DNA from: Arcobacter acticola
GTDB lineage: Bacteria; Campylobacterota; Campylobacteria; Campylobacterales; Arcobacteraceae
Assembly (NCBI RefSeq): GCF_013177675.1
Contig: NZ_CP042652.1
Location: forward strand, 2,728,001-2,792,000
Direction: 5' to 3'
Length of the DNA stretch: 64,000 nt
Under the pieces are notes generated by a model, which did no database searches, had not been told where the DNA came from, and saw nothing but the letters and a program-made list of their open reading frames with translations. The translations under genes and the position numbers were made by a program. Positions 5,444 through 46,732 of the stretch are shown here, in pieces. Each line of letters begins with the position of its first letter. Positions within the stretch are counted from its first letter, which is position 1.

Positions 5444-6442
5444 TTATGAAAAGTTTCTATTAGCTAAAAACTCAACTAAAACTGTTGCATATGAACCCTT
5501 AGGTAAGATAAAATCCAAAGTACATACTTTATTAGCAGCATCATATTTACAAGATATTTCTCTTGGGAAAACGATAGCTTCTCTTCTATACCCTTTTTCT
5601 TGAACATATAGATCATCATACTTTTCTTCAATTTGTCTTGCTTTGCCCATAGCTTTAAATACTTTTCGTCCAGGAAGAAGTCCTGTTGGAGTTATTTTAG
5701 AATTTTTGAAATCATTTAAAATATTTGCAGTAATTGCTTTTGGAGTGAAAATTTTATCTTTTTCTAAATCTAAGAAAATATCCCCATCTATTAAATCAAA
5801 ATAATCTTTTGAAAGTTTTAATCTCTCAACAAGCCAAGCATTAAAAAAACTACTTTGATAAGCAGCTACTAGCATTTTTGAGAGTTTTTTATCTTTAACT
5901 AATTCTTCACCATAAACAACATCTTTAGCTTTTGCTAAATTATCAACAACATCTTTCCCAAATCTTTGATAACCAAAATAGTTTGGCATACCATCTCTTG
6001 AAATAAGTTTTATGATTTTTTGAATATGATTTACATCTGCAATTTCAACTTTATGAAGATTAATTTTAAAACGATTTCCTTCTAAATCACCAATATTTAA
6101 TTTTGCATTATGTAAAAAAGTATCAAGTATCGTAATTTTTTTATTTTTAAAAAGTTTTATTTCTTTTGAGTATTTTTTTGGAATAGTCATATATTGAATA
6201 GTTGTAGCTCTTTTATCTTTTAACCCTGCATATCCAATTTCATTTGAATAAATATTTAAAAATTTAGCTAATCTATCTATCAATTCCCAAGTATCGCAGT
6301 TTGATTTTTCTACTTTTAAAACTAAAAAACTTCCTGCACCAGAAAATTTTATAGCCTGTTCTTCTACTATAAAATCCTCTTCATTTTGTACAAACTTGAA
6401 ATTTAAAACTTTATCATTAGCAGGATAAAATCGTTCTATCAA
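5444..6442 (-). CDS. truD: tRNA pseudouridine(13) synthase TruD
   Basis: TruD makes pseudouridine at position 13 of tRNA-Glu. The 332 residues contain the catalytic Asp76 in YAGLKDKRA, the following TTIQYMTIP strand, and MPNYFGYQRFGKD with the insertion domain after it. The start codon overlaps the end of dksA by four bases, so translation is probably coupled. Length is typical for the family. Confidence 0.95.
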   Translation of the reverse strand: MIERFYPANDKVLNFKFVQNEEDFIVEEQAIKFSGAGSFLVLKVEKSNCDTWELIDRLAKFLNIYSNEIGYAGLKDKRATTIQYMTIPKKYSKEIKLFKNKKITILDTFLHNAKLNIGDLEGNRFKINLHKVEIADVNHIQKIIKLISRDGMPNYFGYQRFGKDVVDNLAKAKDVVYGEELVKDKKLSKMLVAAYQSSFFNAWLVERLKLSKDYFDLIDGDIFLDLEKDKIFTPKAITANILNDFKNSKITPTGLLPGRKVFKAMGKARQIEEKYDDLYVQEKGYRREAIVFPREISCKYDAANKVCTLDFILPKGSYATVLVEFLANRNFS

Positions 6443-6810
6443 TTTTTTGCTCTTTTTACAAACTCATGTTCATAAACTGTTCTACATTCTGTACAGAATT
6501 TTGCAAATGGTTTTGCTTTTAATCTTCCTAAAGGAATAACAATACCACACATATCACAAATACCATAAGTACCTTGCGATATTTTTACAAGAGCCTCTTC
6601 AATTTGTTTAAACTCTTCTAGTTGATGATTTGCAATCATTCCTTCTGTGAAAGAATCACTTACAAGTTCAGCATAATCTAAATCATCTTTAATATCTTGT
6701 TCTTTTAATTGATCAATATTTAATCTGCTACTATTAATATTAGATAATATATTATCTCTTCTTTCAAGTAAAATTACTTTTAGCTCATCAATTTGACTTT
6801 TATTTGGCAT
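6439..6810 (-). CDS. dksA: DksA/TraR-family zinc-finger regulator
   Basis: A 123-residue protein with an N-terminal coiled coil and a C4 zinc finger formed by Cys85, Cys88, Cys106 and Cys109 (CDMCG...CTEC). The coiled-coil tip holds DDLDYAELVSD, the acidic region that in DksA enters the RNA polymerase secondary channel. It starts from ATG 6808-6810 behind an AAGGAGAAG Shine-Dalgarno. It is upstream of and overlapping truD. Confidence 0.9.
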   Translation of the reverse strand: MPNKSQIDELKVILLERRDNILSNINSSRLNIDQLKEQDIKDDLDYAELVSDSFTEGMIANHQLEEFKQIEEALVKISQGTYGICDMCGIVIPLGRLKAKPFAKFCTECRTVYEHEFVKRAKN

Positions 6811-17668: not shown

Positions 17669-19327
17669 CCTGACTTCATCATTCGAGGCACCCAATATGA
17701 ATATCAATAATATTTTGAATTTTTAGTTGTATTTCATTAAGTTGCAACACTTCAAATTTTTTCTTATGTGTAAGTGGGTTTATATATTCTAATCCATAGA
17801 TTGTTTTTATCTCTTCGAGGGCTATTTGCACTGACAAATTCTTATCATGAAGTTTAATAATTCTTTCAAGTTCTTTATAAACTGTATATGCAATAAATGA
17901 TATTGAGATATGAGCTTCTATTCTATGTCTTAGATAATGATGAATTGGTCTTATTTTTAAATCTGTTTTAGAAATTCTAAAGGCTCTTTCTATATGCCAC
18001 AGATTTGAGTAGTTTTCAATCACTTCAGATGGACTGAGTGTTGTATTTGTGATATAACCTTTAAGACCATCCCAAAGTGCATCTTCATTAAATTTATCAT
18101 AATCAATTACTACTTCAATTTCATTTTTAAGATGTAAATATTTATTATATCCTCTACTATTGATTTGATCTTTTGTAAGTCTTCCTGATTTGATTTTCTT
18201 TTCTAATCTTTTTAAACCTTTTTCTCTATTATATTTATCTTTTTTTGCTCTTTTATCTGTATATGACAACACAAGTGTATCATCACCTTTTGCAACGGTT
18301 GCAATAGCATTATTTACATCAAGATTTAAAGATAATATTTTACTTTTTGTAATATGATTTTCATTTTTGATTCTTGCACCTAAGATATATTTATAGTTAT
18401 GAGTTTTTAGTTGTTCTATATTATTTTTAGATAACAATCCTGAATCAGCTATTACAATTGGTTTTTCTAAATTAAATTTCTTTTCAAACTTTTGAAGTAT
18501 TGGTATAAAAGTATTTCCTTCATAGCTATTCCCCTCATAAATATCATAGCCTATTGGATAACCTTTTTCTCCCACTAAAAGTCCAAGCATTATTTGTGGA
18601 GATTGAAATTTACCATCTTTACTAAATCCAATTCTTCTTAAATCATCCTCATCTTCACTCTCAAAGTAAAGTGTTGTAACATCATAAAATAAAACAGTAA
18701 TTTCACCTAATATTTTTTTTGTATGTTCAAAGGCTACTTGTTCAATCTCCTCTTTATATACAACATTAAACTTATCCATAAAGCGATATATCTTCATAAT
18801 ATCAATATCTATATTTCTATATCGTTTAAGATACTCAATAACTTTTAATTTACTTCCTGGATTAATAAGTCTTGTTACAACTAAATGTTTTAAAAGTTCA
18901 TCATCAATAATTTTACTAAATCCAATATAATCAAACAATCTTGCGATAATAAGTTCTGGGCCAATACAAACAATACTATTTGTTGATAGATTTTTTACAA
19001 AGGTATCTATTATATTTTCACTATTATCATTTGGAAATAAATTTAATATAGGTTGTTTGGTGAGTTGTGGAATAAGTTTTAATCCCTCTTCATATAAAAG
19101 TTCTATTTCTATTTCATCTTTAGATGAACCAATAGTTTGCACTACTTTATTATTTCTTCCAATTTTTTCTATTATTTGAACACTTATACTACCACTTGCA
19201 TTTCTTTTTTTACGAATAAACATACAATATTATATCGTGGGTCACCCAACTTAAAAATTAAAATACCTTAACCATGGGGTTTATTAGATATTGTTTTATG
19301 CTCTTTTTCAAAAGTGATGAAGTCAGG
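17669..19327. mobile_element. IS1634-family insertion sequence (1659 bp)
   Basis: The ends are 13-bp perfect inverted repeats, CCTGACTTCATCA at 17669-17681 and its complement at 19315-19327. The element holds one transposase gene. The flanking direct repeats are 372 bp and abut both ends exactly. The IS1634 family is known for long, variable target duplications, so this fits one transposition event. The identity of the two repeats suggests it is recent. Confidence 0.93.
17679..19223 (-). CDS. IS1634-family transposase (IS4 superfamily, DDE)
   Basis: A 514-residue transposase of full length. The DDE triad is visible as Asp181 (VLFYDVTTLYFES), Asp260 (IVIADSGLLSK) and Glu412 in the LWHIERAFRISK motif, the IS4-type YREK-like signature. 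It starts at ATG 19221-19223, 104 bp inside the right end, and stops 10 bp from the left end. No frameshift is seen, so the element may be active. Confidence 0.93.
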   Translation of the reverse strand: MFIRKKRNASGSISVQIIEKIGRNNKVVQTIGSSKDEIEIELLYEEGLKLIPQLTKQPILNLFPNDNSENIIDTFVKNLSTNSIVCIGPELIIARLFDYIGFSKIIDDELLKHLVVTRLINPGSKLKVIEYLKRYRNIDIDIMKIYRFMDKFNVVYKEEIEQVAFEHTKKILGEITVLFYDVTTLYFESEDEDDLRRIGFSKDGKFQSPQIMLGLLVGEKGYPIGYDIYEGNSYEGNTFIPILQKFEKKFNLEKPIVIADSGLLSKNNIEQLKTHNYKYILGARIKNENHITKSKILSLNLDVNNAIATVAKGDDTLVLSYTDKRAKKDKYNREKGLKRLEKKIKSGRLTKDQINSRGYNKYLHLKNEIEVVIDYDKFNEDALWDGLKGYITNTTLSPSEVIENYSNLWHIERAFRISKTDLKIRPIHHYLRHRIEAHISISFIAYTVYKELERIIKLHDKNLSVQIALEEIKTIYGLEYINPLTHKKKFEVLQLNEIQLKIQNIIDIHIGCLE

Positions 19328-22817: not shown

Positions 22818-24161
22818 GGGAACCTCTAAAAATACCTTTTAAAGCTCCCAACTTTTACTTTTTTTGATTTTTAAAAAATCTCAGCCCAATTCTAACTGAA
22901 CTTTACTAAGAATTTTGTGGAAATCACCCTAATATTTTGGATATTTCATCCATTTCCCAACTCTTTTCATATCAATTTTACCTTTTGTAATCTAACCATC
23001 TGTTCGTATCTGACTAAGTTGTAGGTAAGGTTCGTAAGTCCTATTGTGGACTTTATCCTATCTATTCCAATTGAGAGAAGATTAAGTGCATTATGCATTT
23101 GAGTTGTAAGTGTTCCAAATATATGTTCAACTCTTACTCTTGTTTTAGAGTGTTTATAATTTTCTTTATGCTGGGCATTGGTTAAGGGTTTGTTTCTGTA
23201 GGCTCTTTTGATAACTTTTGATTTCACATTTTTACTTTCGAGATATTGCTCAGTCTCTTCAGATTTATAAGCACTATCAGCATAGAGGGTATTATCATCT
23301 CCATCTATCAAATCTTTAACCACTTGTGAATCATGGGTTGAAGCTGGCGTCACTTCATATTTAGTGATAATTTTAGTTTTCTGATCTGAGGCTACATGAT
23401 CTTTATATCCATATTCTCTTTGACCTCCTTTTGTTGTCCATCTTGCATCACAATCTTTTTGAGCTTTTTTATTTGGATTGTCTTCAAAGCTTTGTGGCAT
23501 TTTATCCTCTTTGATTTGTTTATTTTCATCTCTTGTATTTCTTTGTTTGGGTACATTTACAAATGAAGCATCAACGATTGTCCCCTCTTTGGCAACTATT
23601 CCATTTGAGATAAGTTTAGAGGTAAATAGTTCAAATAATTTTTTGGATAAACCTTTCTCTTTTAGTTGCTCTTTAAACAACCATATAGTCTTTTCATCTG
23701 GTACATCATCACCGATTTGCAATCCTAAAAAATCTAAAAATGATAATCTATCTTTGATCTGAAATTCTGTTTGTTCATCTGAAAGATTATAATATCGTTG
23801 AAGTATTAAAATTTTAAACATTAGCAATTTATCGTATGGCTTTCTTCCTGCATTTGACTTTCTATCCTCTTTTTCTAAAGCTGATTCAATTGTTTCTCTA
23901 AACATCTCCCAATCAATAATCTTGTTTAGTTTTTGTAGCGGTGGTTGATGTTTATTGATTTTTTCCAATTGAAATTCGTAGTCAAATAGTCCTGCCATTT
24001 TTTAACCTTTGTACCTATATTTATATAGATATTTTAGCTAAAAAGTCCTACAAAAAGCCTTACATAAAGGGTTTTGTCGCTTTATTGCAAAGTATACATC
24101 ATCAGTGATTTTATGAATATTTTCAATTTTTATGAATATTGACTAATTTTTAGAGGTGCCC
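22818..24161. mobile_element. IS5-type insertion sequence (1344 bp)
   Basis: The ends are inverted repeats GGGAACCTCTAAAAAT on the left and GGGCACCTCTAAAAAT (complement strand) on the right, one mismatch in 16. TTAA flanks both sides. It contains one intact transposase gene. It splits the start of the solute-binding sensor kinase gene. Confidence 0.93.
22967..23998 (-). CDS. IS5-family transposase
   Basis: A 343-residue DDE transposase with Asp143 (TIVDASF), Asp241 (TLYADSAYKSEE) and Glu291 (RVRVEHIFG), and the usual N-terminal helical region ending in RKPYDKLLMFKIL. The GDDVPDEKTIWLF motif before the first Asp is typical of the IS5 group. It has full length, one frame, ATG at 23996-23998 and no visible damage. 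Confidence 0.94.
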   Translation of the reverse strand: MAGLFDYEFQLEKINKHQPPLQKLNKIIDWEMFRETIESALEKEDRKSNAGRKPYDKLLMFKILILQRYYNLSDEQTEFQIKDRLSFLDFLGLQIGDDVPDEKTIWLFKEQLKEKGLSKKLFELFTSKLISNGIVAKEGTIVDASFVNVPKQRNTRDENKQIKEDKMPQSFEDNPNKKAQKDCDARWTTKGGQREYGYKDHVASDQKTKIITKYEVTPASTHDSQVVKDLIDGDDNTLYADSAYKSEETEQYLESKNVKSKVIKRAYRNKPLTNAQHKENYKHSKTRVRVEHIFGTLTTQMHNALNLLSIGIDRIKSTIGLTNLTYNLVRYEQMVRLQKVKLI

Positions 24162-24298: not shown

Positions 24299-24418
24299 AA
24301 AAAAAAAGCTTCTTTTACAAGAAGCTTTTTTTCTAAGGAGAACAAAATTTATAATCTAAGTTTAAAGGTTCGCGGCTTTTAAACTTTTTAAGAAGATTCG
24401 CATTTCCTCTTAAGTTAT
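24299..24418 (-). ncRNA. Small-RNA candidate, copy 1
   Basis: About 120 nt with its own promoter, two hairpins and a terminator, closely matching copy 2 at 28879-28991. The -10 TATACT (24425-24430) predicts a 5' end near 24418. Hairpin A is 24388-24395 with 24406-24413 (7 of 8 pairs); hairpin B is a 9-bp stem, 24358-24366 with 24378-24386, with an 11-nt loop identical in both copies. All loops contain GCGAA on the RNA strand. The linker at 24334-24346 reads TTTGTTCTCCTTA in the RNA, complementary to a Shine-Dalgarno. No convincing reading frame is shared by the copies. Confidence 0.7.
24301..24332 (-). terminator. Terminator of small-RNA copy 1
   Basis: A 14-bp stem (AAAAAAAGCTTCTT with its complement) and a TTAC loop. 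On the minus strand it ends in nine T, on the plus strand in seven, so it is strongest for the minus-strand RNA. Confidence 0.88.
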
Positions 24419-24424
24419 ATAGAC

Positions 24425-24467
24425 AGTATAATATCCGAGCATTAACTAAACTATAATCAATAGTTAA
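24425..24467 (-). promoter_or_regulatory. Promoter of small-RNA copy 1 with shared operator
   Basis: On the minus strand the operator at 24467-24442 reads TTAACTA-TTGATTATAGTT-TAGTTAA: two 7-bp inverted half-sites around a 12-bp spacer. Exactly 11 nt later comes the -10 hexamer TATACT. The same spacing occurs at 28998-29040 and 43314-43356. The operator takes the place of the -35 box, as expected for a class of activator sites. Confidence 0.68.
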
Positions 24468-24479
24468 TAAATAATTAAC

Positions 24480-25784
24480 TTAAGATACAATTTCATCTAA
24501 TCGCTCTAATATCTCTTTAAATAAGGGTCTTTTATTAGGGATTTCACTTAAACATGATATTTGTAATTTCAATAAAGCATCTTTTATTTTTTCACTTTTA
24601 TTATCTTCCTTTGATAAAACCAATAAATCTTCAATCAAACATCCAAAAGCTCTTACTTCTAAATGTTCTAAGGCGTTATGCATTTGCAAATCTTCTGCTT
24701 CATAATATGATGCTCCACCAAAATCACCTAAAATACTATTATCATTTTTATCTATCATAATATTATGTGCATAAAAATCACCATGCATTATATTTCGTTC
24801 ATGCATATGAACAGCAGCATTTGCCATTCCTTTTAGAATTTTTAAACAAGATTGAAGTGAGAGTTTAAAGTTTTCTTTATAAACATCCCTTGTACAAGTC
24901 TCAAAACTAGGAGGCAATCCTAAGTTTGAAAAAGAAGATGGAATTAGTTCTAACATCAATACATCTTTATTTTGGGGATGATTTACTACTTGAGCTAAAA
25001 CATCAATAAGATTTTCATGTACACCCATAGAGATATTTATATCCATTTCTTCTTGGGGTAAACCATCTGATGTCATATCTCCTTTAAATACTTTTATAGC
25101 AACTTCTTTATTTTCATATATTGCTTTATAAATATTCCCAGAAGCACCCTCCCCTAATAGTTCTTTTATTTCTAATTCATTCCATGAAATTATTTGCAAT
25201 TTTGTATTAGAGTTTGGATGTTTTTTACAAAAAGGGTTTCCACTATATGCAAGCCATGAAAGTTTTGGTAATGAAAGTAAAATATTAGGGAAAGAGCTAA
25301 GTTTATTTGCAGAAATTCTTAAAAGTTCTAAATTTTTACAATTACTAATACTAGAAGGTAAAAACGTTAATTGATTTCCTGAAATCATAAATTTTTGAAG
25401 TAAAGATAAATCACCAATAGACTCAGGTATAGCTTGCAAATTGTTATCAGTTAATATTAACCATCTTGTACTAAGAGGTAATGAATTTTCTTCAAATATT
25501 TCAATATGATTATTTCTTATTCCAATCATTGATAAAACAGGAAGTTTAGCTAATACTTTTGGAACATGATTAAATTGATTATTTGATAAAAAAAGTCTTT
25601 TTAGTTTTTTAAATCTATAAAAATCATCTGGCAAAGAAGATAGATTATTATCAGTTAAATCCAAAACTTCCAAGCTATCTTCTAAGGTATATAATTCAGA
25701 AGGAAAGATATCAAGACTACATGCTATTTTGATATGTGTTGAGTTTTTTAATTTGCCAGATTTCAGTTCTTTTAGTGTTTCCAT
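24480..25784 (-). CDS. Leucine-rich-repeat protein kinase
   Basis: A 434-residue cytoplasmic protein with no signal peptide. Residues 35-180 are about seven leucine-rich repeats (LEVLDLTDNNLSSLPDDF, LKRLFLSNNQFNHVPKVL). Residues 205-430 are a eukaryotic-type Ser/Thr kinase: glycine loop GEGASG (211-216), Lys231 in EVAIKVF, catalytic loop HGDFYAHN with Asp336, and DFG at 354-356. The kinase looks catalytically complete. Target unknown. Its stop is 13 bp from the operator of small-RNA copy 1, and both are read in the same direction. Confidence 0.88.
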   Translation of the reverse strand: METLKELKSGKLKNSTHIKIACSLDIFPSELYTLEDSLEVLDLTDNNLSSLPDDFYRFKKLKRLFLSNNQFNHVPKVLAKLPVLSMIGIRNNHIEIFEENSLPLSTRWLILTDNNLQAIPESIGDLSLLQKFMISGNQLTFLPSSISNCKNLELLRISANKLSSFPNILLSLPKLSWLAYSGNPFCKKHPNSNTKLQIISWNELEIKELLGEGASGNIYKAIYENKEVAIKVFKGDMTSDGLPQEEMDINISMGVHENLIDVLAQVVNHPQNKDVLMLELIPSSFSNLGLPPSFETCTRDVYKENFKLSLQSCLKILKGMANAAVHMHERNIMHGDFYAHNIMIDKNDNSILGDFGGASYYEAEDLQMHNALEHLEVRAFGCLIEDLLVLSKEDNKSEKIKDALLKLQISCLSEIPNKRPLFKEILERLDEIVS

Positions 25785-25927
25785 ATATAATATAATCCTA
25801 GATTTTACTGTATTTTGTTTTATTAATATTAGATAATAACATAAATCATCTTGGCAAATTATTTATAATTTAAATATGATAAAAGCTAAAGAAAAAGCCC
25901 TCTCATAATAAATAGTGTTATAGTATT

Positions 25928-27343
25928 TTATTCATATGGTAATTCTATTCTGAACTCCGCACCTGCATATTCATTTTTATTATAAGTAAAAGAAACATTA
26001 TAAGCTTCCATTGAACCATCCATACCTTTTGTTACTAGATTATATGTAATATTTAAACCTAATCCTGTACCTTTACTTTTATCTTTTGTTGTAAAATAAG
26101 GTTCAAATATATGAGGTAAAACACTATTTGCTATTCCATGGGCATTGTCTTTTATTTTAATAATTACATGATTTTTTTTAATTTTAGAAGAAATAAAAAC
26201 ATATTTATTCTCAACTTTTTTTTCTATTAATGCATCTTTTGCATTATTAAAAATATTGAATAAACACTGCAAAAGTTCGTTTGGATAATTATTAATCTTG
26301 ATATTTTCTTCAAGATCTAAAACTATATTTATATTATGAATTTTAATAGAACCTTGAACCAAAGTTAAAAAGTTATTTATATTATCTGCTATATCAAATA
26401 CAACTTTATTTCGTTCACCTTTTATAAAATCACTAAAATGATCTATTGTTTTTGATAAATATTGAGCATTGTCATTTATTGCTTGACAAGTTTTATCAAA
26501 TTCTTCATCATTTAAAATTCCATATTCTTTTTGTATTTTCATTCCTGTGACACCTGTAGAAATAACAGATAAAGGCTGTCTCCATTGATGGGCTATATTT
26601 GCAATCATTTCACCTAATGCAGCCATTTTCTCTGACCTCATAACTTCATGTTCCATCATAATATTTTCTAAAGTTTTTTCTTTTATAGATAAATATGTTG
26701 TAAATATTATTGGAAGAGTTAGTAGAAGATATAATAGTGTTTCTTCAAGATATTTATATTTTATATCATCGATAATTTTGTTAAAAACTTCCATTGAAAC
26801 CTCAGCAGATATTACAATAACCTGTGAATTTTCTAATGTCATTGGAATATGTACAGCTCTAAAAGAACTCCATTTATCAGTATAATTATCATAAAGAATT
26901 TCTTTTGATTCAAAAGAATTAACAAGTGATTCTCCCGCATCTTCATAATGGTGAAAATAGTGTAATTCACTTTTTTCTTCTAATTCTTCTTTTGAAGCAC
27001 TTGAAGAAGTTAGATACACTTTATTATCTTTTTTAATTGATGAATAGATAAAAGCTAAGTTTGCATGATTGTTATAATATGATAATTTGTTTATATTTTC
27101 CCAATCTTCTTCTTGGGAAATTGAATCTTTATTTATTGCTTTTTTAAAAAAATCTTCACCTAATATATTATATACAGTATAAGCACCAATTTTTAATTTG
27201 TCATCTACAACTTCTATTTCTTTTTGTTTATAGTCCATATATGAAGAATAATTGTAAAAAAATATACTTATTACATAAAAGATAGAGGCAAGGAATATTT
27301 TATAATATTTAAACAAAACCTTCTCCTTGATAAAAAGAATCAT
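25928..27343 (-). CDS. Sensor histidine kinase with small periplasmic domain
   Basis: A 471-residue kinase with TM1 at about residues 13-30, a periplasmic domain of about 150 residues (DFFKKAINKDSIS, SSFRAVHIPMTLENSQVIVIS), TM2 near 200-218 and a transmitter. The H-box NIAHQWRQPLS holds His252, and the ATPase domain has NIFNNAKDAL, DNAHGIA and GTGLGLNIT. The sensor resembles single-Cache heme- or redox-sensing domains in size but I cannot name the ligand. No response regulator is next to it. Confidence 0.88.
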   Translation of the reverse strand: MILFIKEKVLFKYYKIFLASIFYVISIFFYNYSSYMDYKQKEIEVVDDKLKIGAYTVYNILGEDFFKKAINKDSISQEEDWENINKLSYYNNHANLAFIYSSIKKDNKVYLTSSSASKEELEEKSELHYFHHYEDAGESLVNSFESKEILYDNYTDKWSSFRAVHIPMTLENSQVIVISAEVSMEVFNKIIDDIKYKYLEETLLYLLLTLPIIFTTYLSIKEKTLENIMMEHEVMRSEKMAALGEMIANIAHQWRQPLSVISTGVTGMKIQKEYGILNDEEFDKTCQAINDNAQYLSKTIDHFSDFIKGERNKVVFDIADNINNFLTLVQGSIKIHNINIVLDLEENIKINNYPNELLQCLFNIFNNAKDALIEKKVENKYVFISSKIKKNHVIIKIKDNAHGIANSVLPHIFEPYFTTKDKSKGTGLGLNITYNLVTKGMDGSMEAYNVSFTYNKNEYAGAEFRIELPYE

Positions 27344-27436
27344 TACACTGTAATCATATCACTTTTTTACCAATTATATAATAATAAATTTGGCTATAAA
27401 ATAATAAAAAAGCCAAAATTCACTTTTTAACTCTTT

Positions 27437-28741
27437 TTATTTTATATTTCTAACACATCTTGCAAAATTTAAGCCCCTAATAACATCTCCTTGTGGTCCA
27501 CGAATGATTGCACCATTTACAACTTTAAAACCATTTTGCTTTACATTTATTTGTGATATATCTTTAGGAGCACTTCTTTGAGCACCTGCTCCATGAACAT
27601 CTAAATAAAAACCATGAAAATATCCTAATGCTCTCCCAAAACTTATATATACAGCATTTCTAGCATTTGACATATTTTCATGGCTAGTACTACTCCAATA
27701 AAAAGCAAAATCTTTTTGTTTATTTTCATTTATTATAGGAGTTGCATTAAAAACTGAATTAATAGCAGCAGAATTACTTGTATCTGGTGAACGTGTATAA
27801 TCTACTATACTTTGAAGCTCTTTTGCATCTGGTAGTTTCCAATTGCTATATCCTGCTTCTCTAGAGTTTTCACAATACTCTAATGCATCGCTCCACTTTA
27901 CACCAAGACCATTATCATTTTTTTGCCACATAAGATTTGTTGCAAGATCTGTGATTGTTCCATCTTTATGATCTATAAAATTGTTTTTCCCATAATTTTC
28001 ATTTCCACGAACACATTGAACATAAAACTTTTTATCTTTACCCCTTGCCGTAAGTGGATAGCCTTTTATTCTTCCATCTGCAAAATTAACCCCAAACATT
28101 GTATTGTTACCATTCATTGTATTAGATACATATTTTGTTGATGTTGCCCACTGAGCATCTATAAGTCTTTCTTTTTTACTTCTATCTCCATATCCAAAAC
28201 CAAAGACATAATTATTAATAAATGGTGTTAATTTACTATCTTCTTCATCATAAGCACTTATATCCTTACCATTAAAATCAATTAATGAATATATAGATTT
28301 AATATCTGGAAGTCTCCAATCAGATTTTTTGGCAAGAGTTAAATTCTCGCAATATGATATTGCATCACTTTGACTCATTTTATCATCATAATTAACTTTC
28401 CCATCACCATTTATATCTGCTGTTTGTTGCCATACTAATTTTGTAATATGATCACTTACCGTTCCGTCATTATTATCTGAAAAAGAAGGACTTAGAGTTT
28501 TATACTGTGCATCTTGTCCTGTTTGCATACATGAAATCTGCACTCCACTTACATCAAAACATTTTTCTTGGTTTGTATCTACTATAGGGTATTGAGAACT
28601 TGTACTTGTTATTGGACTATTATTGATTTCTTCATTTTTTTCTATCTGTGTTTTTTGTGCTGGTAAACCTAAAGAATTGCAAGATAATAACATAGAAATT
28701 ATTCCCACGAGGAAAAGTTGTTTAGAGTATTTGAAATTCAT
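27437..28741 (-). CDS. DUF1566-domain lipoprotein with Ca-binding-like loop
   Basis: A 434-residue lipoprotein (lipobox ISMLLSC, Cys21). It contains two DUF1566 (Lcl C-terminal) repeats. The first, from about residue 100, has DNNDGTVSDHITKLVWQQ and KKSDWRLPDIKSIYSLID; the second, from about 255, has DHKDGTITDLATNLMWQK and GYSNWKLPDAKELQSIVDY. Between the start of the first and its WRLP motif is an EF-hand/dockerin-like loop DINGDGKVNYDD. Lcl-type proteins are surface adhesins in Legionella; a surface role is inferred here. Confidence 0.85.
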   Translation of the reverse strand: MNFKYSKQLFLVGIISMLLSCNSLGLPAQKTQIEKNEEINNSPITSTSSQYPIVDTNQEKCFDVSGVQISCMQTGQDAQYKTLSPSFSDNNDGTVSDHITKLVWQQTADINGDGKVNYDDKMSQSDAISYCENLTLAKKSDWRLPDIKSIYSLIDFNGKDISAYDEEDSKLTPFINNYVFGFGYGDRSKKERLIDAQWATSTKYVSNTMNGNNTMFGVNFADGRIKGYPLTARGKDKKFYVQCVRGNENYGKNNFIDHKDGTITDLATNLMWQKNDNGLGVKWSDALEYCENSREAGYSNWKLPDAKELQSIVDYTRSPDTSNSAAINSVFNATPIINENKQKDFAFYWSSTSHENMSNARNAVYISFGRALGYFHGFYLDVHGAGAQRSAPKDISQINVKQNGFKVVNGAIIRGPQGDVIRGLNFARCVRNIK

Positions 28742-28878
28742 AATTTTATTACCTTTATATATATTTTTTTGAATTATATATTTGTGATATTAATTATGTT
28801 TTAACAAGAAGTAAATAAGAGTAAATAATTATCATTATTTTTAATATGTAGGGTTTCTTAGAGTTAAATATTATAGGC

Positions 28879-28991
28879 AAAAAAAAAGCTCCTTTTTTCA
28901 AGGAGCTTTTTTGTAAGGAGAACAAATTTTGAAAGTTTAAAGGTTCGCGGCTTTTAAACTTTTTAAGAAGCTTCGCGTTTCTTCTTAATAT
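28879..28991 (-). ncRNA. Small-RNA candidate, copy 2
   Basis: A paralogue of the RNA at 24299-24418. Hairpin A is a perfect 8-bp stem (28963-28970 with 28981-28988, 10-nt loop) and hairpin B a perfect 10-bp stem (28932-28941 with 28953-28962, loop identical to copy 1). The segment TTTGTTCTCCTTA (complement of 28914-28926) is the same in both. Where stems differ between copies, pairing in hairpin A is kept at most positions. The predicted 5' end is near 28991. A 79-codon frame overlaps it but has no counterpart in copy 1. Confidence 0.7.
28882..28912 (-). terminator. Terminator of small-RNA copy 2
   Basis: A 13-bp stem (AAAAAAGCTCCTT with its complement, TTTTC-type loop). Nine T follow on the minus strand. 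The stem sequence differs from copy 1 (GCTCCTT against GCTTCTT), but both arms changed together, so pairing is preserved. Confidence 0.88.
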
Positions 28992-28997
28992 AAAGTA

Positions 28998-29040
28998 ATT
29001 ATAATAGACCACGATTAACTGAAATACAATCAATAGTTAA
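28998..29040 (-). promoter_or_regulatory. Promoter of small-RNA copy 2 with shared operator
   Basis: Operator on the minus strand, 29040-29015: TTAACTA-TTGATTGTATTT-CAGTTAA, then 11 nt, then a perfect -10 TATAAT (complement of 28998-29003). Half-sites, 12-bp spacer and 11-nt gap match copy 1 and the htrA promoter. Confidence 0.7.
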
Positions 29041-29093
29041 CAGAAGGTTAATTTGCTAATAAATACCATATAATATGGAGTAATAAAAAGCAA

Positions 29094-36951: not shown

Positions 36952-37039
36952 TGGCAGACAATGTCGGATTTGAACCGACGGTAGGTTGCCCTACGCTATC
37001 CTTCCAAGATAGTGGATTAAACCGCTCTCCCAATTGTCT
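36952..37039 (-). tRNA. tRNA-Ser(GGA)
   Basis: An 88-nt class II tRNA with encoded CCA. The acceptor stem is AGACAAT/ATTGTCT, the anticodon stem CTATC/GATAG with loop TTGGAAG, giving anticodon GGA. The long variable arm (CGTAGGGCAACCTACCG) is typical of serine tRNA. The T loop is GTTCAAATC. Confidence 0.95.
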
Positions 37040-43276: not shown

Positions 43277-43304
43277 AATAAATAGGGAGGAACCCCTATT
43301 TATT
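43277..43304 (+). terminator. Stem-loop after ilvD
   Basis: AATAAATAGGG (43277-43287) pairs fully with CCCTATTTATT (43294-43304), 6-nt loop. The T-run is short. The htrA operator begins 10 bp later. Confidence 0.6.
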
Positions 43305-43313
43305 AACCATGCA

Positions 43314-43356
43314 TTAACTATTGATTGGAAAATAGTTTACTCTTTTAGCTTAGAAT
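43314..43356 (+). promoter_or_regulatory. htrA promoter with operator shared with the two small RNAs
   Basis: TTAACTA (43314-43320), 12-nt spacer starting TTGATT, TAGTTTA (43333-43339), 11 nt, then -10 TAGAAT (43351-43356). The layout is the same to the base as in the promoters of the two small-RNA genes. Confidence 0.66.
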
Positions 43357-43390: not shown

Positions 43391-44824
43391 GTGAAGAAAA
43401 AACTTTTGATTATTTCTACATTAATTGCAACTCAACTATTTGCAAAAACTATAGATTTTGAGATGATGGATAAAAATCCAGTAAGAGTTACACCAAATTC
43501 AAATAATGAAATTTTATCTTTTAATGACAGTGTTAAGAATTCAGTAAATTCAATAGTAAATATTTCCGCAAAAAAACACGTTGATACAAATTTAGATTCA
43601 GTTCCATTACAACAAATGTTCAACGATCCATTATTTAAAAGATTTTTTGGTGATCAATTTGGTGAAAATCAATTTAAACAAAATAGAGTTCAAAGATCTT
43701 TAGGATCAGGTGTTATTGTTTCAAAAGAGGGATATATTGTAACTAATAATCATGTTATTGAAAATGCAGATGAAATCACAGTTACAATTGGTGATGATAC
43801 AACTGAATATAATGGAAAATTAATAGGTCGTGATGCAGACAGTGATATGGCTGTTATTAAAATCGAAACAGAAAAAACATTAACTCCAATCAAAATTGGT
43901 GATTCAAATAGTTTAAAAGTAGGAGATCTAATTTTTGCAATTGGAAATCCATTTGGTATTGGAAGCACAGTTACTCAAGGAATTATCTCAGCTTTAAATA
44001 AAAATAAAGTTGGAATTAATAGATATGAAAACTATATTCAAACAGATGCTTCAATAAACCCTGGAAACTCAGGTGGTGCCTTAGTTGATAGTCGTGGTGC
44101 TTTAATTGGTATTAATACAGCTATTATTTCTAAAAGTGGTGGAAATAATGGAATTGGCTTTGCAATACCAATTGCAATGGTTCAAGATGTTGTTACAAAA
44201 CTAGTAGCAGATGGAAAAGTAACACGTGGTTATTTAGGTGTAGCTATTGGTGATGTTGATAATGAACTAGCAAAAGTTTATAAAAGAAAAGAAGGTGCTT
44301 TAATTTTAGATATATCAGCTGATACTCCAGCTTCTAAATATGGACTAAAAAGAGGTGACTTAATTTATGCAATAAATGGAAAAGCTGTAAAAGATAGAAC
44401 TTCTTTACAAAATACAATTGCATCTTTTAAACCTGAAGAGAAAATTGTACTTCAAGTTGAAAGAGATAGAAAAGATATTGATTTAAATATTGTATTAGGA
44501 GATAGAACTTCAAGTCTTGCAGAAGTTCAAACGGATAGTTCAGTACCTGTTCTTGGTGGATTAAAATTAAGTTTAATTGATGCAGAAAATCAAAAGAAAT
44601 TTAGATTACCAACAGAAATAACAGGAATACTGATTTCAGATGTTGAGCCTAAATCACAAGCTGAGGAATCAGGTTTTCAATCAGGCGATGTTATTATTCA
44701 AATTGAAGACATTGAAATCAAAACGTTTGCAAATATTGATGCAGCATTAAAAAAATATAAAGAAAAATATAAAAGAGTTTATGTAAATAGATATGGTCAA
44801 ACTATTCTATTCGTAACACAATAA
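43391..44824 (+). CDS. htrA: Periplasmic serine protease/chaperone HtrA (DegP)
   Basis: A 477-residue envelope quality-control protease with GTG start and a signal peptide ending at about residue 18 (TQLFA). The triad is His121 (NNHVIENAD), Asp152 (DSDMAVIKI) and Ser227 (NPGNSGGAL). Two PDZ domains follow (RGYLGVAIGDVDN from about residue 275 and GILISDVEPKSQAEESG from about 415). It is the first gene of an operon with a response regulator and a kinase, the order seen around htrA-cprR-cprS in Campylobacter jejuni. Confidence 0.95.
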   Translation: MKKKLLIISTLIATQLFAKTIDFEMMDKNPVRVTPNSNNEILSFNDSVKNSVNSIVNISAKKHVDTNLDSVPLQQMFNDPLFKRFFGDQFGENQFKQNRVQRSLGSGVIVSKEGYIVTNNHVIENADEITVTIGDDTTEYNGKLIGRDADSDMAVIKIETEKTLTPIKIGDSNSLKVGDLIFAIGNPFGIGSTVTQGIISALNKNKVGINRYENYIQTDASINPGNSGGALVDSRGALIGINTAIISKSGGNNGIGFAIPIAMVQDVVTKLVADGKVTRGYLGVAIGDVDNELAKVYKRKEGALILDISADTPASKYGLKRGDLIYAINGKAVKDRTSLQNTIASFKPEEKIVLQVERDRKDIDLNIVLGDRTSSLAEVQTDSSVPVLGGLKLSLIDAENQKKFRLPTEITGILISDVEPKSQAEESGFQSGDVIIQIEDIEIKTFANIDAALKKYKEKYKRVYVNRYGQTILFVTQ

Positions 44825-44837: not shown

Positions 44838-45512
44838 ACAAAAGTACTTATGATAGAAGATGATTTAGAATTAGCTCAAATCATCTCAGATTATTTAAAA
44901 TCATTTGATATAGAAGTTACAAATACAGATAGTCCATATAATGGTCTATCTATGTTAAATGTACACAAAGACTATCAACTTATTATTTTAGATTTAACTC
45001 TTCCTGAAATTGATGGACTTGAATTAATTCCAAAAATCAGAGAAAAGTCAAATATACCTATTATCATAAGTTCAGCTCGGGATGACATTCTCGATAAAGT
45101 TATGGGATTAGAAAGAGGGGCAGATGATTATCTTCCAAAGCCTTATAACCCAAGAGAACTTCAAGCTAGAATTAAAACTATTCTAAAAAGAGTTGAAACA
45201 AAAAACGAAACAAAAAAAGTTGAAACAAACTCTATGTTTCAAATTAAAGAAAGTGATATGCAAATATTATTTAAAGACACTGCACTTACTTTAACACTTG
45301 CAGAATATGATATTTTGAAATTACTTATTCAAAGAAATCATGGTGTAGTTGCACGTGAAGATTTTATTTATGCAAGTGATAATATAGAAGATGATTCATC
45401 ACTTAAAAATATTGATGTAATTATTTCAAGAATTAGAACAAAGCTAGGGAAAATCGATCATAACAACACACATATTAAATCAGTAAGAGGTATCGGATAT
45501 CAGTTAATATGA
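44835..45512 (+). CDS. OmpR-family response regulator (CprR-like), AUU start
   Basis: A 225-residue regulator. From ATT 44835 the product begins TKVLMIEDDLELAQ after the initiator, giving the complete first strand and acidic pocket; the phosphoacceptor is then Asp53 (LIILDLTLPEIDG). The usual Thr/Ser-Ala position and Lys (YLPKPYNPREL) are present. A winged-helix DNA-binding domain follows (LTLAEYDILKLLIQ, ISRIRTKLGK, VRGIGYQL). It sits 10 bp after htrA and overlaps the kinase gene by four bases. It is a candidate activator of the shared operator at 43314, 24442 and 29015. Confidence 0.85.
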   Translation: MTKVLMIEDDLELAQIISDYLKSFDIEVTNTDSPYNGLSMLNVHKDYQLIILDLTLPEIDGLELIPKIREKSNIPIIISSARDDILDKVMGLERGADDYLPKPYNPRELQARIKTILKRVETKNETKKVETNSMFQIKESDMQILFKDTALTLTLAEYDILKLLIQRNHGVVAREDFIYASDNIEDDSSLKNIDVIISRIRTKLGKIDHNNTHIKSVRGIGYQLI

Positions 45513-46732
45513 TTAGAAATGTTTCCATATCGACTTTTATTAATATTATTTTTTCATTAGCTCTTGTATCTATTTTTATAACTTTTGGAATGTTTATTAA
45601 TCATGATAAACAAAAACATGAGATTGCTTTACAAAATAGATATGAGTTGATTGCAGAAAACTTTTTAAGTTCATTTCAAAATCAACCAACCGTTGAATCT
45701 TTACTTGCTTTATATAAGAAATTTAAAGTTACGCCTATTGAAGATAGAGATAGAAAATTAAAAATCATTAAAAATGCACAAGAATTAACAATAACACAAA
45801 ACTATTTAGGAACTTATAGGGTATATAAATATGCTGATAAATACTACATTTACGTACAGCAATATGGTTATAACTTAATGCTAAAAGATTCTGACAACAA
45901 CAACTACAGTATGGCTTTTATAATCGTTGGATTTGTTATATCTTTACTTACATTTTTATTTTTATATGAAGTTCTAAAAAGAAAATTAAGACCTTTAAAA
46001 ATATTAAATAAACAAATTATTGAGTTTTCAAATGGAAATAAAGACATAAAACTAAATTATACAAGTACAGATGAAATTGGTACCATTGCAAAAAGTTTTA
46101 ATGAAGCTATAAATATCATAAATAATCAATCTAAATCAAAAGATTTATTTATGAGAAATATGATGCATGAGCTTAAAACCCCTATTACTAAGGCTATGTT
46201 TATTGCAGAAACTTTAAATGATGACAATAAAAGAGAAACTCTTCAAAGAGCATTTAAAAGAATGGATGATATTATCAAAGAGCTAGCGACTGTTGAAAAG
46301 CTAACTTCTAAAAATACTATGATTTATAAAGAAGAAACATCTTTTTTTAATATCTATACAAGAACCTTAGAAATCATGATGATAAATCCTGAGAATATAG
46401 CTACTAAAATAAGAGATTTCAAATTTGAAGTTGATGTATCTATGATGTCAATTGCACTAAAAAATTTAATTGATAATGCTATAAAATTCTCTCCAAATAA
46501 AAAAGCAATTATAAATGCAAATAAAGAAAGAATAGAAATCATTTCTTTAGGAGAACCTTTGAATAATGAACTTGCATACTATACAGAAGCGTTCTCTCAA
46601 GAAGAAAAAAGAAGTGATGGATTCGGGCTTGGTCTTTATATTGTAAAAACTATTGTATGTTTACATGGATATAAACTTGAATATAAATACGAGGGTGGAA
46701 GAAACTTTTTTATCATAAATATGATGAAATAG
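45509..46732 (+). CDS. Sensor histidine kinase (CprS-like)
   Basis: A 407-residue kinase with TM1 at about 8-27, a periplasmic domain of about 110 residues, TM2 at 135-155, a HAMP domain and an H-box MMHELKTPITKAM. N-box LKNLIDNAIKFSPN and the G-box GFGLGLYIVK are present, with a shortened ATP-lid region. It is read with the regulator upstream, so the pair forms a two-component system controlling envelope functions, by analogy with CprRS. Confidence 0.88.
   Translation: MIRNVSISTFINIIFSLALVSIFITFGMFINHDKQKHEIALQNRYELIAENFLSSFQNQPTVESLLALYKKFKVTPIEDRDRKLKIIKNAQELTITQNYLGTYRVYKYADKYYIYVQQYGYNLMLKDSDNNNYSMAFIIVGFVISLLTFLFLYEVLKRKLRPLKILNKQIIEFSNGNKDIKLNYTSTDEIGTIAKSFNEAINIINNQSKSKDLFMRNMMHELKTPITKAMFIAETLNDDNKRETLQRAFKRMDDIIKELATVEKLTSKNTMIYKEETSFFNIYTRTLEIMMINPENIATKIRDFKFEVDVSMMSIALKNLIDNAIKFSPNKKAIINANKERIEIISLGEPLNNELAYYTEAFSQEEKRSDGFGLGLYIVKTIVCLHGYKLEYKYEGGRNFFIINMMK

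Follow-up and report, generated by a model that had tools for sequence, protein, structure and literature searches.

A family of anti-Shine-Dalgarno small RNAs in Arcobacteraceae that shares its promoter array with htrA: candidate repressors of outer-membrane and exported proteins

The chromosome of Arcobacter acticola (assembly GCF_013177675.1, contig NZ_CP042652.1) carries two paralogous small RNA (sRNA) genes on the minus strand of a 64,000-nucleotide stretch at positions 2,728,001 to 2,792,000 (the window, whose coordinates are used below unless genome positions are indicated). Copy 1 occupies 24299-24418, with a predicted start about 6-7 nt past its -10 box, and copy 2 occupies 28879-28991. 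Both consist of two GCGAA-loop hairpins, a linker that stays unpaired and is complementary to Shine-Dalgarno (SD) sequences, and an intrinsic terminator that ends in T9. In copy 1, hairpin A lies at 24388-24413, hairpin B at 24358-24386, the linker TTTGTTCTCCTTA at 24334-24346 and the terminator at 24299-24333. The corresponding parts of copy 2 are found at 28963-28988, 28933-28961, 28914-28926 (again TTTGTTCTCCTTA) and 28879-28913. These parts were placed from the predicted folds, with the addition of an alignment for hairpin B of copy 2, and of tests in which stem arms are swapped between sequences for both terminators and, in relatives, for the hairpins of copy 1. An earlier sequence-only reading had described this common layout of promoter, two GCGAA hairpins, linker and T9 tract, and every part could be located. 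The hairpin B loop region, GCCGCGAACC, is identical in the two copies, as that reading had noted and the alignment confirms.

The folding energies of copies 1 and 2 lie below those of their dinucleotide shuffles (z-scores -4.2 and -3.6; 0 and 1 of 200 shuffles, respectively, fold as well). Between the copies, a U-A pair of the terminator is replaced by C-G, a compensated change. The 3,019,071-base genome of the window (G000) contains three exact matches to the linker TTTGTTCTCCTTA: one in each RNA gene and a third that lies antisense to the start region of a gene.

Each RNA is preceded by an array of four boxes with an 11-bp period, followed by N10 and a -10 box. The promoter of copy 1 (24425-24478, minus strand) reads TTAAT/TTAAC/TTATA/TTAAT and ends in TATACT at 24430-24425; that of copy 2 (28998-29051, minus strand) reads TTAAC/TTAAC/TTGTA/TTAAT and ends in TATAAT at 29003-28998. 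Their scores on a position weight matrix (PWM), built from 79 sRNA promoters alone and no htrA promoters, are 46.2 and 54.2. A gapless alignment of 63 sites gives the head-to-tail order TTWAC-N6, TTAAC-N6, TT-N9 and TTAAT, then N10 and TATAAT. A palindromic reading of the promoter, TTAACT...AGTTAA, was abandoned in favour of the 11-bp direct repeat, which fits all members. Such a period is typical of sites for OmpR/PhoB-type response regulators, and by this period we take the four-box array to be an OmpR-type site.

When the matrix was run over the window, the only site above 12 besides the two sRNA promoters was at 43303-43356 on the plus strand (TTAAC/TTAAC/TTGGA/TTTAC, N10, TAGAAT; PWM 30.9). 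It stands directly upstream of a gene for an HtrA/DegP-type periplasmic serine protease with PDZ domains (43391-44824, plus strand; Pfam PF13365, PF13180), which is followed on the same strand by an OmpR-type, CprR-like response regulator (44850-45512; PF00072 and PF00486), the candidate controller of the RNAs, and a CprS-like histidine kinase (45509-46732; Pfam HAMP, HisKA, HATPase_c).

The two RNAs belong to a larger family. The sequence-only reading had presented them as a pair; both are real, but the A. acticola genome has four members, the others being a class B RNA at genome position 786,782 (L037) and a class C RNA at 1,917,083 (L067). A search of relatives returned one homologue of the RNA body (G014, L005), adjoining a relative of the gene next to copy 1, and several matches to the promoter only, which lead to other RNAs of the same plan. 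Of 104 Arcobacteraceae genomes, 81 have the promoter pattern TTAAY-N6-TT-N8-GTTAAT-N10-TATAAT with at most one mismatch. The reversed pattern, run as a control, matches much less often, and a minority of the one-mismatch matches are due to chance. Nearly all inspected sites lead into one or more hairpins, an anti-SD linker and a terminator. At one exact match (L100:1461, plus strand, in genome G077, which lacks an HtrA match), the downstream element is a small CpxP/Spy-like periplasmic open reading frame (ORF) rather than an sRNA.

Class A, the type of copies 1 and 2, comprises about 20 close sequences across the Arcobacteraceae. Class B lies upstream of a UvrD-like helicase gene and has the linker TTATGTTTCCTTGTG, class C lies upstream of a HAD-type gene and has the linker TTTCTCCTCCTA, and there are further variants. 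Linker cores of the CCUUA, CUCCU or CCUCC type recur across all classes, with differing flanks. Several loci have the RNAs in tandem pairs or triplets (L073, L083, L085, L089, L090, L093). At L085, about 700 bp of the minus strand hold three diverged tandem members with CCUCCUU linkers, and each of them has a separate promoter.

Pairing in the stems was assessed by swapping arms, since the differing loop lengths misled RNAalifold, and the fold that it derived from a MAFFT alignment (model R1) was wrong and not used. In class A, arms fit their own partner better than those of other members: ignoring kinship, a permutation test gave p = 5e-5 for hairpin A, and none of 20,000 permutations did as well for hairpin B or for the terminator. 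For the first hairpin across all classes, the mean energy was -8.3 kcal/mol with own arms vs -4.5 kcal/mol with swapped arms, again ignoring kinship. The compensated stem changes of the earlier description thus extend to the class as a whole, and homologues in other genomes retain both the stems and an anti-SD linker.

The PWM finds a site upstream of 30 of the 30 scanned Arcobacteraceae htrA genes, with scores of 15.6-41.4, while control stretches score around 0 or below. A profile model of the site (R2), run on 299 genomes of the order, matches in A. acticola the four sRNAs, htrA and a single weak site. HtrA itself has matches in 90 of the 104 Arcobacteraceae genomes; in none of the 14 without a match at E <= 1e-60 was an sRNA of the same kind recognised, and these 14 are mainly from genera that lack one, but this co-absence follows genus lines and is not an independent test. 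The order htrA, response regulator, histidine kinase is the same as that of htrA-cprR-cprS in Campylobacter jejuni (GP013, L297) and is also found in C. taeniopygiae (L295). Given the shared site array and this gene order, the most economical controller of the RNAs is the CprR-like regulator, and control by an envelope-stress regulator of this kind is what we infer from the sequences. The bare pattern TTAACN6TTAACN6TT shows no excess in the A. acticola genome over its reversed control (79 vs 138), and a scan of 19 bare-pattern places in that genome yielded no further protein-coding members of the regulon.

It is conceivable, though unlikely, that the anti-SD RNAs answer to another OmpR-type regulator, such as one for phosphate or redox, with htrA as merely one co-regulated gene. 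The A. acticola genome has 38 PF00486 matches, and 11-bp direct repeats are generally common to OmpR/PhoB-type regulators. Against this speak the presence of the site at every scanned htrA operon, its occurrence before htrA outside the Arcobacteraceae as well (L265, L273, L286), and the weakness of the sole further R2 match in A. acticola. The CprR-like regulator is accordingly preferred.

The sequence-only reading had pointed to UCUCCUU in the linker as complementary to SD sequences and had suggested that the RNAs may be translation repressors. Both ideas gain support, as far as complementarity can tell, from the match between linkers and the ribosome-binding sites (RBSs) of outer-membrane and exported protein genes. 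Target prediction, which it had proposed with the UCUCCUU seed, was made with the longer linkers and gave a LivJ-like gene in A. acticola, and porins and a TonB receptor in the genera g33 and g38, as candidates.

In A. acticola, the linker complement TAAGGAGAACAAA is found exactly once outside the sRNA genes, at genome positions 1806762-1806776, where it reaches from the SD through the first base of the ATG start codon of a LivJ-like binding-protein gene of 371 codons. The predicted duplex of this site with copies 1 and 2 has an energy of -18 to -19 kcal/mol, and the 57 ORFs of the window have a median of -7.4 and a best value of -16.4 kcal/mol. That best value belongs to the RBS of a DksA/TraR-like gene (6442-6810), a possible secondary target. 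Several of the next-best linker matches in the genome also precede exported proteins, and the near-matches include housekeeping ORFs of the rpsF and EF-P type.

The genera g33 and g38 have the linker UUUGUUUCCUUGUGUGU or UUAUGUUUCCUUGUGUGU. A scan for ACAAGGAAACA no more than 6 nt from an ATG in these genera gave six non-self ORF matches, five of which are outer-membrane or similar proteins: a TonB receptor, an outer-membrane-protein-like protein and three porins. Porins were then collected by homology, and many of those in g33 and g38 carry (U)ACACACAAGGA before the start. The uninterrupted pairing of porin and linker, in some cases including G-U pairs, extends over 18 nt in G102, 16 nt in G088, 15 nt in G107, G104, G083, G087 and G081, 14 nt in G089 and 13 nt in G091, G086 and G103. 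The mean duplex energy of 23 g33/g38 porins, three of which had been found via the motif, is -17.8 kcal/mol. This compares with -11.4 kcal/mol in 18 porins from other genera (p = 4e-5) and -10.6 kcal/mol in 66 further ORFs from the same loci (p = 1e-8). In G079, the RBS of a TonB receptor, ACACACACAAGGAAACAAA, is a 19-nt exact complement of the genome's own sRNA, and an extra GU/AC unit is present in both partners. A generic RBS motif alone was rejected as evidence of targeting, since genomes that lack the sRNA also have matches to it, among them ribosomal protein L25.

These data bear on the idea that the RNAs are general anti-SD molecules that have no dedicated targets and, through a linker imitating the 16S rRNA 3' tail, broadly lower translation from strong SDs under stress. 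The recurrence of the same linker cores in all classes amid variable flanks fits this idea, as do the housekeeping ORFs among the near-matches in A. acticola. However, linkers such as UUUGUUUCCUUGUGUGU are conserved well past the SD complement, and their extra letters match the RBSs of porins and TonB receptors specifically, while other SD-bearing ORFs of the same genomes pair much less; together with the 19-nt match in G079, this makes the idea unlikely. Dedicated targets among outer-membrane and exported proteins thus remain the preferred reading.

That the elements instead belong to neighbouring genes, as their short untranslated leaders, attenuators or terminators, is very improbable: classes B and C do lie upstream of helicase-like and HAD-type genes, and an element sits in the htrA leader in L286 and L301, but the RNAs have strong terminators of their own, occur in tandem, differ in their downstream neighbours between copies 1 and 2, and carry a conserved linker complementary to distant genes.

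Since they have their own promoters and terminators, the RNAs are units separate from the adjacent genes. As originally described, a kinase gene and an ion channel gene adjoin them on the same (minus) strand. The former (24480-25784) encodes a leucine-rich-repeat (LRR) protein with a Ser/Thr kinase domain, and it is a relative of this gene that borders the homologous sRNA in G014. The gene neighbourhood of the RNAs varies between genomes, and the adjacent kinase and channel genes look incidental to them. Two transposase-like genes are found near the sRNA region, one at 17679-19223, judged by eye, and the other at 22967-23998, with a match to Pfam DDE_Tnp_1; their closeness suggests local rearrangement.

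Relatives of the promoter are also found outside the Arcobacteraceae. In a second family of the order, sites stand upstream of htrA (L265, L273). In L286 (864-1017), two possible hairpins with a TTACCTCCTTT stretch between them separate the site from htrA. In L301, four TTWAN-like boxes with a PWM score of only 7 precede an htrA leader that may form two hairpins with anti-SD sequences in their loops. In family f20, the four-box array, N10 and TATACT are followed by a conserved stretch similar to ACAATTACCTCCTTTTTGT and then by a strong terminator; next comes a gene resembling those for exported solute-binding proteins (L277, 906, plus strand; and on the minus strand L278, 987; L279, 975; L280, 1074). 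These cases, with few sequences each and read by eye, suggest that the link between this type of promoter and anti-SD RNA may predate the Arcobacteraceae. A broader scheme, which is tentative and rather doubtful, would have an htrA-linked CprR-type regulator control fast-evolving, Hfq-independent anti-SD RNAs throughout the Campylobacterales: free RNAs in the Arcobacteraceae, a different RNA beside a peptide-binding-protein-like gene in f20, and hairpins of the htrA leader in L286 and L301. Linkers and the RBSs of outer-membrane protein genes would co-evolve, and the GCGAA loops would recruit an RNA-binding partner that replaces Hfq.

The RNAs appear to be new as a sequence family. An Rfam 15 scan of the window reported tRNAs only (a tRNA-Ser(gga) found by ARAGORN at 36952-37039 was not reported by the Rfam tRNA model at its gathering score). 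At E <= 1, twelve sRNA loci gave only unrelated matches below threshold, the best with 31.3 bits against a gathering score of 55, so that the earlier statement that no described family has this layout holds for Rfam even at a relaxed threshold. The Rfam models of OmrA/OmrB, MicA and RybB had no match in the window or in the twelve loci. No description of these RNAs was found in the open-access literature on Arcobacter and sRNAs, judged by title and abstract, and no open-access paper was found that joins CprR, sRNA and Campylobacter.

The kind of RNA is nevertheless familiar. MicA, RybB and MicF are porin-repressing sRNAs of E. coli, and MicA and RybB are under sigma-E-type control. The predicted outcome for the Arcobacteraceae RNAs is similar, with envelope stress lowering porin synthesis through RBS pairing, but a two-component system is proposed in place of a sigma-E-type factor, no Hfq is found, and there is no sequence relation in Rfam. 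LhrC of Listeria, the CcsR “cuckoo” RNAs of Rhodobacter and RepG of Helicobacter are other anti-SD sRNA families. They share C/U-rich pairing regions with the present RNAs, and also multi-copy siblings (LhrC, CcsR) or a host in the Campylobacterota (RepG; PMC8295292), but have other promoters, targets and layout. OmrA and OmrB are twin sRNAs of Enterobacterales controlled by EnvZ-OmpR (PMC12692685). Like these, the Arcobacteraceae RNAs are paralogous, putatively controlled by an OmpR-type regulator and predicted to pair with mRNAs of outer-membrane proteins. However, OmrA/B use Hfq, for which (PF17209) no match was found in the 104 Arcobacteraceae genomes while control genomes were positive, and the Arcobacteraceae RNAs have an internal anti-SD linker and a candidate regulator encoded with htrA.

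Similar in plan is CJnc230 of C. jejuni, an RNA of about 98 nt with two stem-loops around a 12-nt stretch that contains an anti-SD sequence (PMC11187230). It is RpoN-dependent, lies downstream of flgE, overlapping the flagellar hook gene region, and acts in flagellar control; no TTAAC-box promoter or htrA link is described for it (PMC11187230). The members of the present family are of similar size but carry TATAAT and TTAAC boxes, and those neighbours that were inspected encode helicase-like or HAD-type proteins, LRR kinases or ion channels. As for the regulator, a passage in PMC7887314 associates CprRS of C. jejuni with surface structures, and cell-envelope functions are ascribed to CprRS/HtrA there with reference to Svensson et al. 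2015. The gene order is shared, but no report of an accompanying sRNA in C. jejuni was found in the open-access papers. Judged from sequence, the Arcobacteraceae RNAs are thus probably of the known outer-membrane-repressing kind controlled by response regulators, but form an unrelated sequence family in an Hfq-free lineage.

The preferred model, to which we give a probability of roughly 0.7, is that the RNAs form a trans-acting family, activated by a CprR-like regulator on envelope stress, that blocks the RBSs of outer-membrane and exported protein mRNAs independently of Hfq. Envelope stress would activate the kinase and regulator of the htrA operon (43.4-46.7 kb), and the regulator would bind the TTAAC boxes, four head-to-tail half-sites with 11-bp spacing that end 10 bp before the -10 box, and activate transcription at both the htrA and sRNA promoters. 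The resulting RNAs, of about 80-130 nt, would each form one or two hairpins whose loops usually contain GCGAA, followed by a C/U-rich linker that stays unpaired and by a strong terminator. Presumably stabilised by their hairpins, they would work without Hfq. The linker would pair with the SD and start region of its target mRNAs, where complementarity is computed, and so may keep the ribosome away. In g33 and g38, HP_OMP_2 porins would be targeted, along with at least one TonB receptor; in A. acticola, with the linker UUUGUUCUCCUUA, copies 1 and 2 have the LivJ-like ABC binding protein as their best predicted target. Overall, this would reduce the load of outer-membrane and periplasmic proteins while HtrA is induced and clears damage.

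Several points weigh against this model. The regulator is assigned by shared sites from among the 38 PF00486 matches, and neither of the two Campylobacter htrA upstream regions that were scored has a TTAAC array. The porin RBSs of one genus share ancestry, which means that the tests on them do not count fully independent events; it was the motif that first led to three of the tested porins, and some porin paralogues do not pair. The porins compared come from genomes other than that of A. acticola, where the best candidate is a periplasmic protein, and a 13-nt match at the SD partly reflects SD/anti-SD complementarity as such. Finally, the conserved GCGAA loops are left unexplained by the mechanism; a protein-binding role for them is possible.

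Control of the outer membrane by sRNAs is poorly known in the Hfq-free Campylobacterota. The finding supplies a defined sRNA family, a promoter signature, a candidate regulator in the same window and candidate targets with long complementarity. The proposed circuit is directly testable and would be an independent evolutionary parallel to MicA, RybB and OmrA/B, and the tandem copies with their shifting linkers offer natural material for the study of how sRNAs and their targets co-evolve.

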